Program-made: the position numbers and the translations under genes | The notes under the pieces: model-generated | Databases searched by the model: none | The model's input: only the letters and a program-made list of their open reading frames with translations | What the model was told of the DNA's origin: nothing | Source: Cellulosimicrobium sp. Marseille-Q4280 | GTDB lineage: Bacteria; Actinomycetota; Actinomycetes; Actinomycetales; Cellulomonadaceae | Assembly: GCF_943181405.1 (NCBI RefSeq) | Contig: NZ_CALPBY010000003.1 | Coordinates: forward strand, 124,001-188,000 | Reading direction: 5' to 3' | Length of the DNA: 64,000 nt | Shown here: piece by piece, positions 8,494-14,945 of the stretch | Position numbering within the stretch: the first letter of the stretch is position 1 | How the letters are laid out: the number at the start of each line of letters is the position of its first letter

Positions 8494-9065
8494 GGCCCGT
8501 CGCCCGTCGTGCCGCCCCCGGCGTCGGTACCGCTCGGGTCGCCGCCGGTGCCGGTCGTCGTGCTCGTCGTGCTCGTCGTACCGGGGTCCGTGGCGCCGGG
8601 CTCCGTGCTGCCGGGGTCCGTGCTGCCGGGGTCCGTGGTGGTCGCACTGCAGTCGGCCAGGAGGACGACGGTCGACCACCGCTCGACCGTGAGGTCCTCG
8701 CGCCACGCCGGGTCGGAGCCGTCGTAGAGGCAGCCGGGCCCGGCGTCGGAGGGGTCCGAGACGACGGTCACGCACAGCTCCCCACCACAGCTCGCCGTCA
8801 TCTCGTCGAGGAACGTCGCACGCACCTCGGCGAAGTCGATGCCGATCTGCTGCGCGGCGGTCCCCATCCTGACGGGCGAGCCGCCGGAGGCTCCGCCCTG
8901 CGCCGGGGGCGCTGCGCCGTCGGTCGCCGTCCCGGCGTCCGGTGCGGGCTGCTCGCCGTCCCAGCTGCACGCCGCGCCCGCGCACACGACCCCGGCCGTC
9001 AGCAGCACGGCGGTGACATGACGCGGGGACCGGCGTCGTCCGCCCTGTCCTGTCTCCGTCGACAT
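8490..9065 (-). CDS. Putative lipoprotein with Ser/Thr/Pro-rich tail
   Basis: The 191-residue product begins with a basic stretch and a hydrophobic segment (TAVLLTAGVVCAGAAC), giving a lipobox-like AGAAC with Cys near residue 33. A small domain with four cysteines follows (CGGELC and two later). The last 50 residues are low complexity, with DPGST-like repeats, suiting a wall-spanning linker, although a linker at the C-terminal end is unusual. It overlaps the next membrane protein gene by four bases. Function unknown. Confidence 0.7.
   Translation of the reverse strand: MSTETGQGGRRRSPRHVTAVLLTAGVVCAGAACSWDGEQPAPDAGTATDGAAPPAQGGASGGSPVRMGTAAQQIGIDFAEVRATFLDEMTASCGGELCVTVVSDPSDAGPGCLYDGSDPAWREDLTVERWSTVVLLADCSATTTDPGSTDPGSTEPGATDPGTTSTTSTTTGTGGDPSGTDAGGGTTGDGP
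8558..8640. repeat. Coding tandem repeats in the lipoprotein tail
   Basis: A 15-bp unit of the type CCGGGGTCCGTGCTG recurs about three times next to a run of GTCGTGCTC units. They encode the DPGST and STT stretches of the lipoprotein. Copy number is likely to vary among strains. Confidence 0.75.
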
Positions 9066-9141
9066 GGCCCGGTCCTTCCCGTGGTCCTCCTACGTGGAGG
9101 GAGCAGCCGCTCGGAACGCGTGATACCGGACGTCCCCGGGC

Positions 9142-12100
9142 TCAGCGGAAGTCGCGGGACGTGGTCGCCACCTGGAGCGAGAGCGGGGCGAGGTGCTCCG
9201 CGACGAGGTTCGTCGCGCCGTCGGCCCGCTCGAGCCGGCCCCGCACGACCATCGCCGCAGAGGCCCGCGCGACCTTGCGGAACCGGCGCCAGAGCCCGGC
9301 CGAGCAGACGACGTTGAGGATGCCCGTCTCGTCCTCGAGGGACAGGAACGTCACTCCCCTCGCCGTGCCGGGGCGCTGGCGGTGGGTCACGACGCCTCCG
9401 ACGGCGACGCGCGACCCCGGTCGCGGACGGGTACCGGGCGACTCCCCCGCCGCGCGTTCGGCCTCGTCGGCGTGCTCGATCTCCTCGGCCGCGCGCACCG
9501 CGCCCGCGACGGTGAGCACCCCGGCGGCGGTGAGACCGTCGCGCACGTACTGCGTCGGGTAGGAGTCGGTCGACACGCCGGTGGCCCACACGTCGGCGAC
9601 GGCGGTCTCGACGTCGCTCATGCCGGGCAGCGGCGGCGCCTCGACGCCGACGCTCACGCCCGGCAGCGTGCCCGGCCCTTCCTGCGACAGGGCGCCCGCG
9701 GCCCACAGCGCCTCGCGCCGTGACGTCCCGAGCGACTCCGTCGCGCCCGCGGTCGCCAGCCCTTCGAGCTGGGCGGTCGTGAGGTCGACGCGCCGCACGA
9801 GGTCGCGCAGGTCGGCGAACGGGCGAGGCCCGTCGTCGACCCACGACGACGCCCGGCCGGCCGGGAGTGTCTCAGCACCCTCCCCGTCCCCGTCCCGGGC
9901 AGCGACGATCCGCTCGGCGGCCTGCTTGCCGAGCCCGCGCACGCTCGCGAGCCCGAGCCGCACCGCGAGCCCGAGGTCCGGCTCGGGCCCGAACGCCGGG
10001 TCGATCGTCACCTCGCTGCTCGCCGGGGCACGGTCCGCGCCACCCCCCGCCGCGGGCGCCGGGAGTCGCTCGACCGTCGCCTCGACGCCCGACGCGTTGA
10101 CGTCCGGGCGCAGCACCGTCACGCCGTGCCGCCGCGCGTCGGCCACGAGCGACTGCGGCGAGTAGAACCCCATGGGCTGCGCCGCGAGCAGCCCCGCGTA
10201 GAACGCCGCGGGATGGTGCACCTTGAGCCACGAGCTCGCGTAGACGAGGAACGCGAACGAGTACGCGTGCGACTCCGGGAACCCGAAGTCGGCGAACGCC
10301 TTGAGCTTGTCGTAGATCTGCTCGCCCACGTCCGGCGGGACGCCGTTCCTCGCCATGCCCTCGAGGAGCCGGCCGTGCAGCGCCTCCATGCGCTCGACCG
10401 AGCGCTTCGACCCCATCGCCCGCCGCAGCTGGTCCGACTCCGCGGGCGAGAAGCCCGCGACGTCGATCGCCATCTGCATGAGCTGCTCCTGGAACAGCGG
10501 GACCCCGAGCGTCTTGCCGAGCGAGTTCTCCAGCAGCGGGTGGAGAAACGTCACCGGCTCCCGTCCCCGCGCGCGGTTGATGTACGGGTGCACGGAGCCG
10601 CCCTGGATCGGTCCCGGCCGGATGAGCGCGACCTCGATGACGATGTCGTAGAACCGCCGGGGACGCAGGCGCGGCAGCGTCGCCATCTGCGCGCGCGACT
10701 CCACCTGGAACACCCCCACGGTGTCCGCCGCGCACAGCAGGTCGTACACCGCCGGGTCGTCCTCCGGCAGCGTGTGCAGCTCCAGGTGCGACCCCTCGTG
10801 CTGCTCGACCAGGCCGAACCCGATGCGCAGCGCCGTGAGCATCCCGAGCCCCAGCAGGTCGAACTTCACGAGCCCCGCGTCGGCGCAGTCCTCCTTGTCC
10901 CACTGCAGGACCGTGCGCCCCTCCATGCGCGCCCACTCGACGGGGCACACCTCGATGACCGGACGGTCGCACATGACCATGCCGCCCGAGTGGATCCCGA
11001 GGTGCCGCGGCAGACGCAGCATCCGGTCCGCGAGGTCCAGCACCTCGTCGGGGATCTCGCCGTCCTCCGCGGCGGACGGCGGCCGCTGCTCGGGCACGAC
11101 GTCGTGCGTGTCGTCCGCGCGCAGCGCGCCCTCGATCCTGTTCCTGTGGTCACCACGCTCCCGGTCGCCTCCGGCCGGGGGGTGGGGACCGCGCTCGGGC
11201 CTACCATCCGGACCCTCGTCCCTCGGGTCCTCCCGCCAGGCCCGACCACGGCCCTCGGCGGTCCCCACCCCCCGCCCTCTGCCGTGCCCGTCGCCCTGGT
11301 CCTCGGCGAGGGGGTCGACGACGCGCGGACGCACCGCCCGGCCCGTCAGGTCGGGCGACCAGTCACCCCGGTGCCCGGCGTGCGGCCGCTCGTCGCGCCC
11401 ACCGGACGCGGCGTCGCGCGAGGCGCCGTCCCGGGAGGTGCCGGTGCGCGGGGAGGTGGGGGTGGCGCGCGCGGCCGTGGTCGGGTCTGGCGGGAGCGGG
11501 CCGAGGGACGAGGCCCGCGGATGGTAGGCCGCGCGCGCCACCCCCACCTCCCTCCCAGGTGACCCCGTCGGGCGAGCAGCCTCGGGCCCTGGCCCCCAGA
11601 GCGCGGCGACGCGCGCGTCCTTCTCGGCGGTCTTCGTCGCGATGTCCCGCTCCTTGGCGGCGCGGTCCGCCGCCGGCGACGACGGGTCCGGTCCGCGCAG
11701 GGAACCCCAGCGCTCGATGGACTTGCTCCAGGCGTCGGCCTGCCCGACGTCGTATCCGAGCGCGCGTGCGGCGTCGCGCACGGCGGACTTGGGACGGTAG
11801 GAGATGACGTTCGCGACCTGAGCGGCGTGCGTGCGTCCGAACTTCCCGTAGACGTGCTGGATGACCTCCTCGCGCCGCTCGGACTCGATGTCGACGTCGA
11901 TGTCGGGCGGGCCGTCGCGCTCGGGCGCGAGGAAGCGCTCGAACAGCAGGCCGTGGCGCACGGCGTCGACGGCGGTGATGCCGAGCGCGTAGCAGACGGC
12001 GGAGTTCGCGGCCGACCCGCGCCCTTGCGCGAGGATGCCGTGGACCCGGCAGAACTCGACGAGGTCGTAGACGACGAGGAAGTACCCGGGGAACTCGAGG

Positions 12101-13203
12101 TCCTCGATGACCGTCAGCTCGTGGTCGATCTGCCGCCACGCGCCGGGCACGCGCTCGCTCTCGCCCGGTCGTGGACGGGGTCCGTACCGCTCCTCGGCCC
12201 CGCGGCGCACGAGCTCGCGCAGCCACGTGGCCTCGGTGTGCCCGTCGGGCACGGGGTAGGGCGGGAGCCGCGGCGCGACGAGGCTCAGGTCGAACGCGCA
12301 CTCGTCGCCGAGCGCCGCGGCGGTCGCGACCGCCTCCGGGTACCGGCGGTGGCGCGTCAGCATCTCGGCCGCGGAGCGCAGGTGCGCGGTCGGGGCACCG
12401 GGCAGCCACCCGTCCATGTCGTCGAGCGACGACCGGGCGCGGACCGCCGCGAGCGCCCCCGCGAGGTCGGCGTCACGGGGCCGGGCGTAGTGCGCGGCGG
12501 TCGTCGCGACGAGCGGGAGCCGTGCGTCGGCGGCGAGGTCGGCGAGCGCGTCGTGCAGGTCGGCGGTGCGCGGGTCGTCGGACGCGGTGATCTCGACGGC
12601 GACGTTCCCGGCGCCGAAGACGGCGACGAGCCGGTCGAGCTCGCGGCGCGCGGCGGTGCGCCCCTCGGTGACGAGCGCCCGTCGGACGGCGCCCTTGCGG
12701 CACCCGGTGAGGACGAGCCACTGCCCGTCGGCCTCGTGCCCGAGCTCCTCGAGCCGGTAGTCGGCGGCGCCCTTGGTCCCGGTCGCGAGGTGCGCGGTGG
12801 CGATCGCGCGCGAGAGGTTCCGGTAGCCCTGGGGGCCGCGCGCGAGGGCGAGCAGGTGGGTGGAGCGCGGGTCGGGGACGCCGGTGGGCGGGTCGAGCAC
12901 GGGTGCGCCCGACGGCGCGCGCCGTCCCCGCACGGCCCCGCGTCCGGCCGGGTCCGCCGCGCCAGGGCCGGCGGGGACCGGCAGGTGCAGCTCCGCACCG
13001 AAGACGGTGGGCAGCGACACCTTCGCGGCGGCCTGGGAGAACCGGACGACGCCGTAGAGACCGTCGTGGTCGGTGATCGCGAGCGCGGACAGCCCGAGGC
13101 GCGCGCCCTCGGCGGCGAGCTCCTCGGGGTGGGACGCGCCGTCGAGGAAGCTGAACGCGGAGTGGGCGTGCAGCTCGGCGTACCGGGGGGTGCGGGAGGC
13201 CAT
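9142..13203 (-). CDS. dnaE2: Error-prone DNA polymerase DnaE2 with a large in-frame insertion
   Basis: The 1353-residue alpha-type polymerase is the catalytic part of the SOS mutasome. An N-terminal PHP domain (YAELHAHSAFSFLDGAS), the catalytic acidic triad in PDIDVDIES near residue 435, HLGIHSGGMV near 735, the FPESHAYSFA helix-hairpin region and a C-terminal OB-fold (VTFLSLEDETG) are all present. Relatives are about 1050-1150 residues long. The excess lies between DAWSK and HLGIHSGG, residues about 545-705. That stretch is Gly/Arg/Pro-rich and covers two inverted copies of a structured repeat. The frame is intact, so the protein may still work. ATG 13203 overlaps the imuB stop (TGATG). Confidence 0.93.
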   Translation of the reverse strand: MASRTPRYAELHAHSAFSFLDGASHPEELAAEGARLGLSALAITDHDGLYGVVRFSQAAAKVSLPTVFGAELHLPVPAGPGAADPAGRGAVRGRRAPSGAPVLDPPTGVPDPRSTHLLALARGPQGYRNLSRAIATAHLATGTKGAADYRLEELGHEADGQWLVLTGCRKGAVRRALVTEGRTAARRELDRLVAVFGAGNVAVEITASDDPRTADLHDALADLAADARLPLVATTAAHYARPRDADLAGALAAVRARSSLDDMDGWLPGAPTAHLRSAAEMLTRHRRYPEAVATAAALGDECAFDLSLVAPRLPPYPVPDGHTEATWLRELVRRGAEERYGPRPRPGESERVPGAWRQIDHELTVIEDLEFPGYFLVVYDLVEFCRVHGILAQGRGSAANSAVCYALGITAVDAVRHGLLFERFLAPERDGPPDIDVDIESERREEVIQHVYGKFGRTHAAQVANVISYRPKSAVRDAARALGYDVGQADAWSKSIERWGSLRGPDPSSPAADRAAKERDIATKTAEKDARVAALWGPGPEAARPTGSPGREVGVARAAYHPRASSLGPLPPDPTTAARATPTSPRTGTSRDGASRDAASGGRDERPHAGHRGDWSPDLTGRAVRPRVVDPLAEDQGDGHGRGRGVGTAEGRGRAWREDPRDEGPDGRPERGPHPPAGGDRERGDHRNRIEGALRADDTHDVVPEQRPPSAAEDGEIPDEVLDLADRMLRLPRHLGIHSGGMVMCDRPVIEVCPVEWARMEGRTVLQWDKEDCADAGLVKFDLLGLGMLTALRIGFGLVEQHEGSHLELHTLPEDDPAVYDLLCAADTVGVFQVESRAQMATLPRLRPRRFYDIVIEVALIRPGPIQGGSVHPYINRARGREPVTFLHPLLENSLGKTLGVPLFQEQLMQMAIDVAGFSPAESDQLRRAMGSKRSVERMEALHGRLLEGMARNGVPPDVGEQIYDKLKAFADFGFPESHAYSFAFLVYASSWLKVHHPAAFYAGLLAAQPMGFYSPQSLVADARRHGVTVLRPDVNASGVEATVERLPAPAAGGGADRAPASSEVTIDPAFGPEPDLGLAVRLGLASVRGLGKQAAERIVAARDGDGEGAETLPAGRASSWVDDGPRPFADLRDLVRRVDLTTAQLEGLATAGATESLGTSRREALWAAGALSQEGPGTLPGVSVGVEAPPLPGMSDVETAVADVWATGVSTDSYPTQYVRDGLTAAGVLTVAGAVRAAEEIEHADEAERAAGESPGTRPRPGSRVAVGGVVTHRQRPGTARGVTFLSLEDETGILNVVCSAGLWRRFRKVARASAAMVVRGRLERADGATNLVAEHLAPLSLQVATTSRDFR
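11177..11273 (+). repeat. Palindromic structured repeat family A, copy 1
   Basis: A perfect 16-bp outer stem (GGGGGGTGGGGACCGC at 11177-11192, complement at 11258-11273) encloses GGCCTACCATCC, an inner 6-bp hairpin (GGACCC/GGGTCC) with loop TCGTCCCTC, and CTCCCGCCAGGCCCGACCAC before GGCC. The loop and joining segments are nearly identical in copy 2, while both stems differ in sequence but still pair. Confidence 0.85.
11451..11552 (-). repeat. Palindromic structured repeat family A, copy 2 (inverted)
   Basis: A perfect 26-bp inverted repeat (11451-11476 with 11527-11552) forms the outer stem. Read on the minus strand the interior repeats GGCCTACCATCCG, then a hairpin GCGGGCC/GGCCCGC around loop TCGTCCCTC, then CTCCCGCCAGACCCGACCAC and GGCC. 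It is opposite in orientation to copy 1, 177 bp away, and both lie inside the dnaE2 frame. Confidence 0.85.
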
Positions 13204-14945
13204 CAGTCGTACACCCCCTCGACGGTCCAGCGACCGCGCGTGCTCGCGAGGAGCAGCCCACGACCGTCGTCGAGCAGCACCTGGAGGTGGACACGCCGGC
13301 GCGGCGAGGGCGTCCACCACCGCTCGGCCACGGGCCAGGGCCCGGCCCAGTCCACGACGGCGCTCTCCTCGCCCGCGTTCTCCTCGCCCACCCCCTCCGG
13401 CGCCCGGCGGCCCGTCGCGGTCGCCTCGTCCGCGGGGCACCGCACGGTCGCCGGCTCGCCGCTCATCGCGAGGCGCGCGTCGATCACGACGGGACGCGCG
13501 GCGTCGTCGAGCACGACGACGTCCTGCGGCGCGGTGGGCACGACGGCGGGCGCCGGGCTGGGCAGCGCGCCGGGCCAGGGGCGGGCGGGGTCCCGCGGGA
13601 GCGCGACGTCCTCGCCGAACGGGGCGAGGTGGACGCGGTCGGTCGCGTCGCGGCCGCCCTGGACGCGCGCGCGCAGCACGGCGTCGCCGCCGAGCAGGCC
13701 CTGGACGCGGCCGAGCGCGCGGTGCGCGCGCTGGTCCTCGCCGCTCGACGCGCCCCACAGGCGCGGTTGCTCGGCGCCCGCGGGGACGACCTCCTCGGCG
13801 GTGAGGGCGAGACGGGCGAGGGGTGCGCCATCGGGCACGTCGGCGGTACCGCCGGACCTGCGCCCGGCGGCCCGCAGCGAGGACGCGGTGAGCCAGCCCT
13901 CGAGCTGCCAGCGCACCCGGTCCGTGATGCGGGCAGGGCTCAGCACGCCCGTGGGGCCGTCGAGGCGCCACGTGCGCTCGAGGTCGTCGCCCTCGGTGGT
14001 GCGCGCGGTGATGCGCAGCCTCCCCGCGACGAGGGACCGGGTGACGAGCTGGTCGTGCAGGTCCTCCGCGAGCCGGCGCGCGGCGAACGTCGCGACGTCG
14101 ACGCGCTCGGCGGGCGGGTCGAGCTCGGCGGCGACGGCGACGTCCGGCTCGACGCGCCGCCGGGCGGGCGGGCGCAGGTCCTCGCCGCGCGCGAGGCGGT
14201 GCGCCCACGCGCCGGTCTCGCCGAAGCGTCCCTCGACGGTCGCGGCGGGCAGGGCGGCGAGCGCGCCGAGCGTGCGGACGCCGAGCCGGTCGAGGAGCTG
14301 GACGAGCTCGGCGACCGCGACCGCGACGTCGGGCCGGGTGGCGACGTGGACGAGGTCGGACGCGGGCCGCGCCGCGAGGAACGCCGCGGTCTCGCCCCGC
14401 GGCACCACCACGGAGGAGCGCGCGGCGAGCACCGCCGCGAGGATGCCGTCGGCGACACCCACCTGGGCCTCGTGGCCCGTGCGCTCGACGACGCGCGCCA
14501 CGAGCGCCTCCGCGAGCGCGGCGTCGGAGCCGTGGTAGCGGCTCGCGCCCGCGGCGGGCAGGAGCAGCAGGCCGGGCCGGGTGATCTCGAGCCCGGCCAC
14601 GACGGACTCCGCCGCGAGCGCCACGGGCTCGAACTCGCGGGCGTCGCGGGCGTCGTCGACGTCGAGCAGCTCGAGCTCGGGGCAGCACTCGCGGGCCCGA
14701 CGGCGCCGCATCCCCCGGCGCACCCCGGCGGCCCGCGCGGTGGCCGAGACGGCGACGACGCGGCGGCCGTCGTGCGTCGCGGCGGGCACGTGCGAGGGGA
14801 CCTCGCGGACGGCCATCGCGGCGAGCACGGGCCAGTCCGGGACCCACAGGGCGGCGGTGCGCGTCGACAGCCTGCCCACGTCGGTCACGGGCTGCCCTGC
14901 CTGCCCGGAGGCGGGGCGCGGTCCACGGGTCGGGCGGTCGGTCAT
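13203..14945 (-). CDS. imuB: Y-family polymerase-like protein ImuB
   Basis: The 580-residue protein has the truncated Y-family polymerase layout of ImuB: a palm/finger region beginning RTAALWVPDWPVLAA, the RRGMRRRRARECCPEL helix, and a little-finger region with LGALAALPAATVEGRFGETG. The catalytic acidic residues of active DinB are not evident, as expected for ImuB, which acts as an adaptor linking ImuA', DnaE2 and the sliding clamp. The C-terminal part is long and variable. The start ATG overlaps the imuA' stop by four bases and its stop overlaps the dnaE2 start by one base, so the three genes are translated as a unit. Confidence 0.9.
   Translation of the reverse strand: MTDRPTRGPRPASGQAGQPVTDVGRLSTRTAALWVPDWPVLAAMAVREVPSHVPAATHDGRRVVAVSATARAAGVRRGMRRRRARECCPELELLDVDDARDAREFEPVALAAESVVAGLEITRPGLLLLPAAGASRYHGSDAALAEALVARVVERTGHEAQVGVADGILAAVLAARSSVVVPRGETAAFLAARPASDLVHVATRPDVAVAVAELVQLLDRLGVRTLGALAALPAATVEGRFGETGAWAHRLARGEDLRPPARRRVEPDVAVAAELDPPAERVDVATFAARRLAEDLHDQLVTRSLVAGRLRITARTTEGDDLERTWRLDGPTGVLSPARITDRVRWQLEGWLTASSLRAAGRRSGGTADVPDGAPLARLALTAEEVVPAGAEQPRLWGASSGEDQRAHRALGRVQGLLGGDAVLRARVQGGRDATDRVHLAPFGEDVALPRDPARPWPGALPSPAPAVVPTAPQDVVVLDDAARPVVIDARLAMSGEPATVRCPADEATATGRRAPEGVGEENAGEESAVVDWAGPWPVAERWWTPSPRRRVHLQVLLDDGRGLLLASTRGRWTVEGVYD

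Follow-up and report, generated by a model that had tools for sequence, protein, structure and literature searches.

What are the two palindromes that face each other inside the dnaE2 reading frame of Cellulosimicrobium sp. Marseille-Q4280, and what keeps them there? Within the window, the whole 64,000-nucleotide stretch of this genome that we analyzed, both lie in frame in a gene for an error-prone DNA polymerase (Table 1). This confirms the preliminary description, which had placed two inverted copies of one element here, with perfect outer stems of 16 and 26 bp and almost exactly shared unpaired blocks. Both stems are indeed perfect over those lengths, but that of copy 1 is not a single helix, as a small internal loop lies between its 16-bp outer helix and a 5-bp helix, GGGCC/GGCCC, that sits beside the core. 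The unpaired blocks CGGATGGTAGGCC and CCGAGGGACGAGG show 13/13 identity between copy 1 and copy 2 when read in inverse orientation. Folding of all four strands is better than that of their dinucleotide shuffles (z of -5.06 to -7.60, with 0/200 shuffles as good).

Table 1. The dnaE2 frame of the window, its variable linker and the parts of the two element copies (positions count from the first letter of the window).
Feature	Position	Strand	Remarks
dnaE2 (error-prone DNA polymerase III alpha-like) frame	9142..13203	-	open frame; Pfam PHP, DNA_pol3_alpha, finger, HHH, OB
DnaE2 variable linker, AWSKSIERWG to IPDEVLDLADRM (both flanks conserved)	11056..11703	-	648 bp here
Element copy 1	11177..11273	+ (TACCATCC strand = +; folded GTAG strand = -)	model match G000:C3:135183-135267, 73.6 bits
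Copy 1 outer stem, 5' arm	11177..11192	+	partner 11258-11273
Copy 1 outer stem, 3' arm	11258..11273	+	partner 11177..11192
Copy 1 conserved unpaired TACCATCC	11202..11209	+	
Copy 1 inner stem GGACCC/GGGTCC, loop TCGTCCCTC	11210..11230	+	
Copy 1 conserved unpaired TCCCGCCAGGCCCGACCAC	11231..11249	+	
Element copy 2, head to head with copy 1	11451..11552	- (TACCATCC strand = -; folded GTAG strand = +)	model match G000:C3:135459-135544, 76.2 bits
Copy 2 outer stem arm, 26 bp	11451..11476	+	partner 11527-11552
Copy 2 outer stem, other arm	11527..11552	+	partner 11451..11476
Copy 2 conserved internal-loop strand GTGGTCGGGTCTGGCGGGA, as on folded strand	11477..11495	+	
Copy 2 inner stem GCGGGCC/GGCCCGC, loop GAGGGACGA	11496..11518	+	
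Copy 2 conserved unpaired GGATGGTA	11519..11526	+	

The two copies belong to a dispersed family of elements, each about 80-110 nt long, that are scattered over Cellulosimicrobium genomes in intergenic positions and, in frame, within some genes. BLAST with the window pair gives 67 matches in the host genome, counting both strands. From 40 fetched host stretches we took 43 copies, and 41 of these were aligned to make a covariance model, R1. The model finds 46 matches in the host genome at E <= 0.001, two of which, at the ends of contigs C5 and C8, look like one element cut by assembly. Among the 39 genomes searched, host included, R1 matches occur in all 17 from the genus, with 12-83 in each of the 16 others, and the 22 genomes from outside the genus gave one weak match, in G035. 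The search proposed in the preliminary description thus turned up further copies throughout the genus. A near-identical element with the same flank is found at the ends of two host contigs (L020:46-126 and L024:77-157), and such hairpins likewise mark the ends of several contigs in relatives.

Further members occur in Luteimicrobium, Isoptericola, Oerskovia and Actinomyces, among the matches listed, and the family has scattered members in other actinobacterial families. Across the class, 8 of 394 genomes, host included, have a model match under stricter filters, by which 11 host copies scored. An exact match to the core pattern is present in 6 of the 394, again including the host, and the reversed control pattern matches one genome. 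In the matches of four distant genomes (G306, G405, G246 and G120), ACCATCC and CTCCCGCCAGRCCC are largely preserved, mostly with an outer stem that pairs, and the inner loop varies; in three others (G237, G254 and G174) the core deviates. In viral contigs, two sequences match the pattern exactly but show no stem by eye, and a single 191-base query containing the element matched nothing in plasmids or phages. Elements are also carried by records named Sphaerisporangium cinnabarinum ATCC 31213 (L113, L121, L142, L146, L173 and L208); the name is probably wrong.

That the element matched no known repeat, as first noted, agrees with our searches. Rfam 15 gives no match at E <= 1 in window positions 9000-14000, and three matches across 12 member loci, all below the gathering score and at coordinates other than those of the elements. 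In openly licensed PMC papers, searched by titles and the starts of abstracts, no paper on this element is among the matches listed.

Members share one anatomy, in which a long variable outer stem, P1, leads to a fixed internal loop, beyond which a short inner stem, P2, also variable, is capped by a loop of 9 nt. The consensus of the TACC strand runs P1 arm, TACCATCC, P2, TCGTYCCTC, P2', TCCCGCCAGRCCCNCCAC, P1' arm. On the complementary GTAG strand, which is the folded strand in our analysis, the fixed internal loop is asymmetric, with 8 + 18 nt (GGATGGTA / GTGGNGGGYCTGGCGGGA), and GTA(G) closes it inside the hairpin rather than at the end of the palindrome. We measured P1 by a rule of our own after collapsing 220 elements into 145 distinct rows and dropping rows with less than 36 nt of flank; its median length is 21 bp (interquartile range 18-27, maximum 34). 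P1 is shorter than 12 bp in 28 of the 145 distinct copies, some of which have an internal loop near the core, as copy 1 does, and others of which are decayed. Copies ending ACCCACCAC are included, in corrected register, in the stem and site-pair analyses.

The stems covary well beyond controls. Alignment A3 draws 109 sequences, 107 of them distinct, from 100 chosen loci. Pairing holds in 96.1% of its stem cells, covariation reaches 0.633 compared to 0.133 in shuffles and at most 0.091 in slid controls, and both sides have changed in 608 cells compared to 159 in shuffles. Two of the five measures are barely or not above shuffles, namely pairs changed on both sides (33/500 shuffles as high) and further pair types (203/500). 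A3 was fitted to the R1 structure and is biased towards it. Alignment A1, made by sequence alone and leaving out L020, a contig-end duplicate of L024, and the mis-registered L043, gives 0.539 compared to 0.146. Neither a lack of further copies nor chance-level covariation, either of which would have spoken against a selected structure, was therefore seen.

Paired stem changes could also accumulate without any selection on the fold, if the element were a DNA palindrome whose arms are kept perfect by copying one from the other, through template switching or conversion. The very long perfect stems would suit such copying, and so would the spectrum of changes, in which C-G to G-C swaps are common and G-U pairs very few, as well as deletion scars centered on the palindrome (see below), which show that it recombines. 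However, arm-to-arm copying predicts equal numbers of A.C and G.T mismatches, and the P1 mismatches, scored on the TACC strand, comprise 40 A.C and 7 G.T site-position events (p = 1e-6). It also leaves the conserved unpaired core unexplained. We consider this explanation quite improbable.

The same mismatches point to the GTAG strand, which reads GGATGGTAG, as the strand that folds, as each A.C on the TACC strand is a G.U or G.T on the GTAG strand. Mutation bias does not explain the excess, because flanks read in the same orientation have no corresponding asymmetry (352 A/G differences and 378 C/T differences). The GTAG strand is calculated to be the more stable one in 142 of 145 copies, by a median of 7.8 kcal/mol, compared to 0.7 in the other direction for control flanks, and part of this gain may come from its G-rich loop. 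RNA, single-stranded DNA and a DNA cruciform had all been left open by the preliminary description. The mismatch pattern favors one single strand over a symmetric cruciform, and the wobble evidence does not tell RNA from single-stranded DNA.

Comparison of orthologous sites separates what is conserved from what is free to change. For 22 of the 40 fetched host loci, other species have a copy at the corresponding position of their own locus. Our copies form 82 site groups, of which 49 are single because each genome was fetched in part. A group of 50 members that shared repeats had brought together artificially was excluded from the orthologue pairs; 28 groups gave an orthologous pair, and the most diverged pair was used for each. 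Identity at these 28 sites is 96.9% in the 5' unpaired block, 96.6% in the 3' unpaired block, 95.2% in the P2 loop and 88.2% in P1, where the comparison ends at the end of either stem and covers at most 18 bp; the flanks are 75.2% identical. The P1 changes comprise 35 double Watson-Crick changes and, among single changes, 14 to A.C, 2 to G.T and 5 others. Paired substitutions around constant loops had been read at the outset as the mark of a structure under selection, and these double changes, together with the covariation above, bear that reading out. From the sequences we infer that the unpaired core is kept by selection at the site, because conversion from one copy to another could produce this pattern only by leaving untouched the stems, which start at the very edge of the core.

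These sites bear directly on the possibility that the family is a purely selfish miniature mobile element, resembling the Rickettsia palindromic elements, in which structure matters only for transposition and copies within genes survive only in tolerant linkers. One genome, G006, has 14 copies with an equal score of 90.4 bits, the 12 that were read being identical over arms and core, and a selfish element would also account for in-frame copies in unrelated proteins and for the patchy distribution. Yet a core conserved at fixed orthologous sites, with flanks only 75% identical, is unexpected for a dead insertion, conversion should homogenize the stems as well, although they differ right beside the core, and no Y1 transposase was found in the genus. 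A selfish element of this kind is thus a possibility to which we give some, but clearly less than even, credence.

As a separate observation, repeat-flanked copies in G004, G006 and G007 (L215-L234) share one stem at many sites, and the host stem differs at the matching sites; this pattern looks like concerted change of both arms.

By our home-made gene calls, 45 host copies divide into 21 between tandem genes, 11 between convergent genes, 1 between divergent genes, 9 inside open reading frames and 3 unclear, and most of the intergenic ones lie about 40-200 bp past a stop codon. Such placing is what one would expect of a cis-acting RNA element at 3' ends, whether an mRNA stabilizer, a transcription terminator or a processing site, and the wobble pairs, which point to a single-stranded and possibly RNA fold, are compatible with it. 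However, gene orientation is weakly biased in the wrong sense, as in 26 of the 38 site groups between tandem genes the TACC strand is the sense strand and the folded strand is antisense. Another 13 of the 82 site groups lie inside open reading frames in both orientations, and the two window copies, the only ones scanned, have no intrinsic terminator, that is, a stem-loop followed by a T run. A role at 3' ends is therefore unlikely.

Sampled GC skew was too noisy for a test of replication strand. With dnaA positions, and a terminus assumed to lie opposite dnaA, 59 of 93 copies have their TACC strand running with the fork, and 34 have it running against the fork. This bias is weak and goes against the idea of single-stranded DNA on the lagging template, and shared sites and gene orientation confound it. 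Repeats of 21 bp containing GAGGTAG lie within 500 bp of 78 of the 220 copies (not collapsed), and their units point towards the element, with 206 sense and 0 antisense units upstream and 15 sense and 120 antisense units downstream, compared to a background of 38 units in 480 kb.

The pairing of copies seen in the window recurs. Copies less than 800 bp apart in the genus are head to head, TACC to TACC, at 7/7 loci, which represent about five distinct sites (L109 and L182 are the same place, as are L165 and L314), and the model adds another such pair, L103. Counter to this general rule, the distant genome G237 has three close pairs in the same orientation. The pair at L109:4543-4837 and L182:7045-7341 combines one imperfect and one perfect stem, as in the window. 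It lies upstream of a PHP-domain gene (the domain was tested in L109 only, and the L182 DNA is similar), which we take to be dnaE1-like.

Head-to-head pairing had first suggested REPIN/BIME elements moved by a RAYT transposase. REPIN-RAYT systems, as the consulted portions of their descriptions have it (PMC3116915, PMC2817692), consist of paired inverted hairpins that are non-autonomous, and the present hairpins are likewise paired, inverted and non-autonomous. Unlike in those systems, no RAYT was found in the genus, as PF01797 (IS200-like/RAYT) is absent from 17/17 genus genomes, with 5 of 14 control genomes positive. The layout thus stands, whereas movement by a RAYT does not, and the anatomy is also unlike that of REPs. 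According to the accessible text of Di Nocera et al. (2013; PMC3733652), GTAG-/CGTC-tagged REPs are 20-40 bp long, have stems of 5-13 bp and an unpaired tag at one end, occur predominantly as head-to-head dimers, lie mostly between tandem or convergent genes and have many of their intragenic units in DNA synthesis and repair genes; the word 'actinobacteria' does not occur in that text. As far as that text describes tagged REPs, our elements resemble them as dispersed palindromes with head-to-head dimers, tandem or convergent placing, intragenic units and a GTAG motif beside the stem. They differ in their length of about 80-110 nt, a P1 of mostly 18-27 bp (at most 34), a second helix, the 8 + 18 nt loop and the position of GTAG inside the hairpin. 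Of the features that define GTAG-tagged REPs, then, head-to-head dimers are found in the genus, and the size, the stem length and the terminal unpaired GTAG are not. With length and stems far above those of REPs, an internal motif and no RAYT, we regard a RAYT-moved REPIN/BIME as highly implausible.

Two other comparisons help to place the family. Rickettsia palindromic elements occur in frame in protein genes and between genes, according to the same accessible text (PMC3733652). The present elements are like them in having in-frame copies within protein genes (dnaE2, ligD and others), and unlike them in clade, in anatomy and in a core fixed across several actinobacterial families, a distinction drawn from descriptions and not from sequence. 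Like the structured RNAs in Rfam 15, they have covarying helices around a fixed internal loop; unlike those, they match no curated model at the elements searched.

IS110 is an unlikely mover for two reasons. A match to this family is missing from 12 of the 17 genus genomes, and where G004, G010, G014 and G015 each have their one IS110 place, a pattern search of the surrounding stretches detected no element. In G012, 5/5 IS110 places (one match being in two pieces) lie inside the 21-bp GAGGTAG repeats beside an element, so insertion sequences can target the neighborhood of the element, as they target REPs according to the portion of PMC1525189 consulted. At these loci (L360-L364), the transposase match lies 0.6-0.8 kb from the hairpin, and the junctions fall at the same point within the repeat.

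Taken together, these observations favor a REP/RPE-like dispersed element with a new anatomy of its own that is kept by selection on a single-stranded fold, a reading to which we assign a probability of roughly 0.6. The GTAG strand, whether RNA or single-stranded DNA, would be the one that folds, and a putative protein would read its fixed internal loop. The copies would have arisen by earlier copying or transposition, perhaps as head-to-head pairs, through an enzyme other than a present-day IS200-like/RAYT transposase. Many would now be inherited in place, either because the folded element is useful or because it is still required for its own upkeep. A bolder version, which we put forward tentatively, is that the family is a class of strand-specific structured nucleic-acid elements of Actinomycetes, in which the internal loop would serve an undescribed protein or a ribozyme-like activity as its site of binding or reaction, active in dozens of copies per genome, among them copies inside the mRNAs of repair genes such as dnaE2 and ligD.

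Most dispersed palindromes described so far are short, and those understood best are linked to RAYTs. The present family is larger and is found in a genus in which no Y1 transposase could be detected; its internal loop is nearly fixed, its stems covary freely, and copies lie in frame in conserved protein genes. Its covarying copies, scars and pairs form a natural set for studying the function of a dispersed hairpin and which of the two, RNA or single-stranded DNA, is the acting form.

Host genes with copies inside them include those for LigD, biotin carboxylase, a thioredoxin-NHL protein, a P-type ATPase, a BPD/ABC fusion and DnaE2, and by arithmetic on domain coordinates the copies lie mostly between or beyond the matched domains. 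Core length is modal in 22 of 23 in-gene members and differs by 3 in the other, whereas 16 of 88 members elsewhere are off by a non-multiple of 3 (Fisher p = 0.04). The test was limited to groups of 2-9 members and thus does not include the 10-member group to which the window copies belong; it counts a third dnaE2 copy (L254/L278) among the members outside genes, and as lengths there are equal, the frame-break counts are unchanged.

Copies within the dnaE2 linker are found in 3 of 17 genus genomes, with two in the host, two in G015 and one in C. terreum; in G015, the third dnaE2 copy lies further on, beyond the two linker copies. The best explanation of the dnaE2 copies is that they are tolerated in-frame passengers in a variable linker, outside the polymerase mechanism. 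Orthologous dnaE2 genes had been proposed as a place to look for empty sites, and 14 of the 17 genus genomes do have a linker in which no complete element was found, of 231-366 bp. No clean pre-insertion site was found at the absences compared; several are scars and some leave no trace.

In ligD, a single complete copy is present in 12 of the 16 readable genomes (of 17), the two orientations being equally frequent at six each, and three of the four without a copy (G004, G010 and G001) carry remnants whose arms are nested around the same center. Remnants of the same nested form occur at the third dnaE2 site in G014 and G003. Such remnants fit loss by central deletion; there is no clear remnant in the other element-less genomes, G013 for ligD and G008, G013, G000 and G004 for the third dnaE2 site. 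At an intergenic site, compared between L187, without the element, and L126, gain and loss are both possible. We had considered that stems might derive from the target, with an element-less dnaE2 site holding one arm that is copied on insertion, and we dropped this idea because the third dnaE2 site and the ligD linker show nested scars.

Elements face in opposite directions at matching sites in ligD, at L041 and in dnaE2. For ligD, inversion in place was rejected, as G015 has a TACC-sense remnant followed by a GTAG-sense copy; the arrangement of these sequences is better read as differential loss from a head-to-head pair. The ligD linker of G015 (L355) also contains, after the element, a tandem repeat that encodes alternating D-T/D-I residues.
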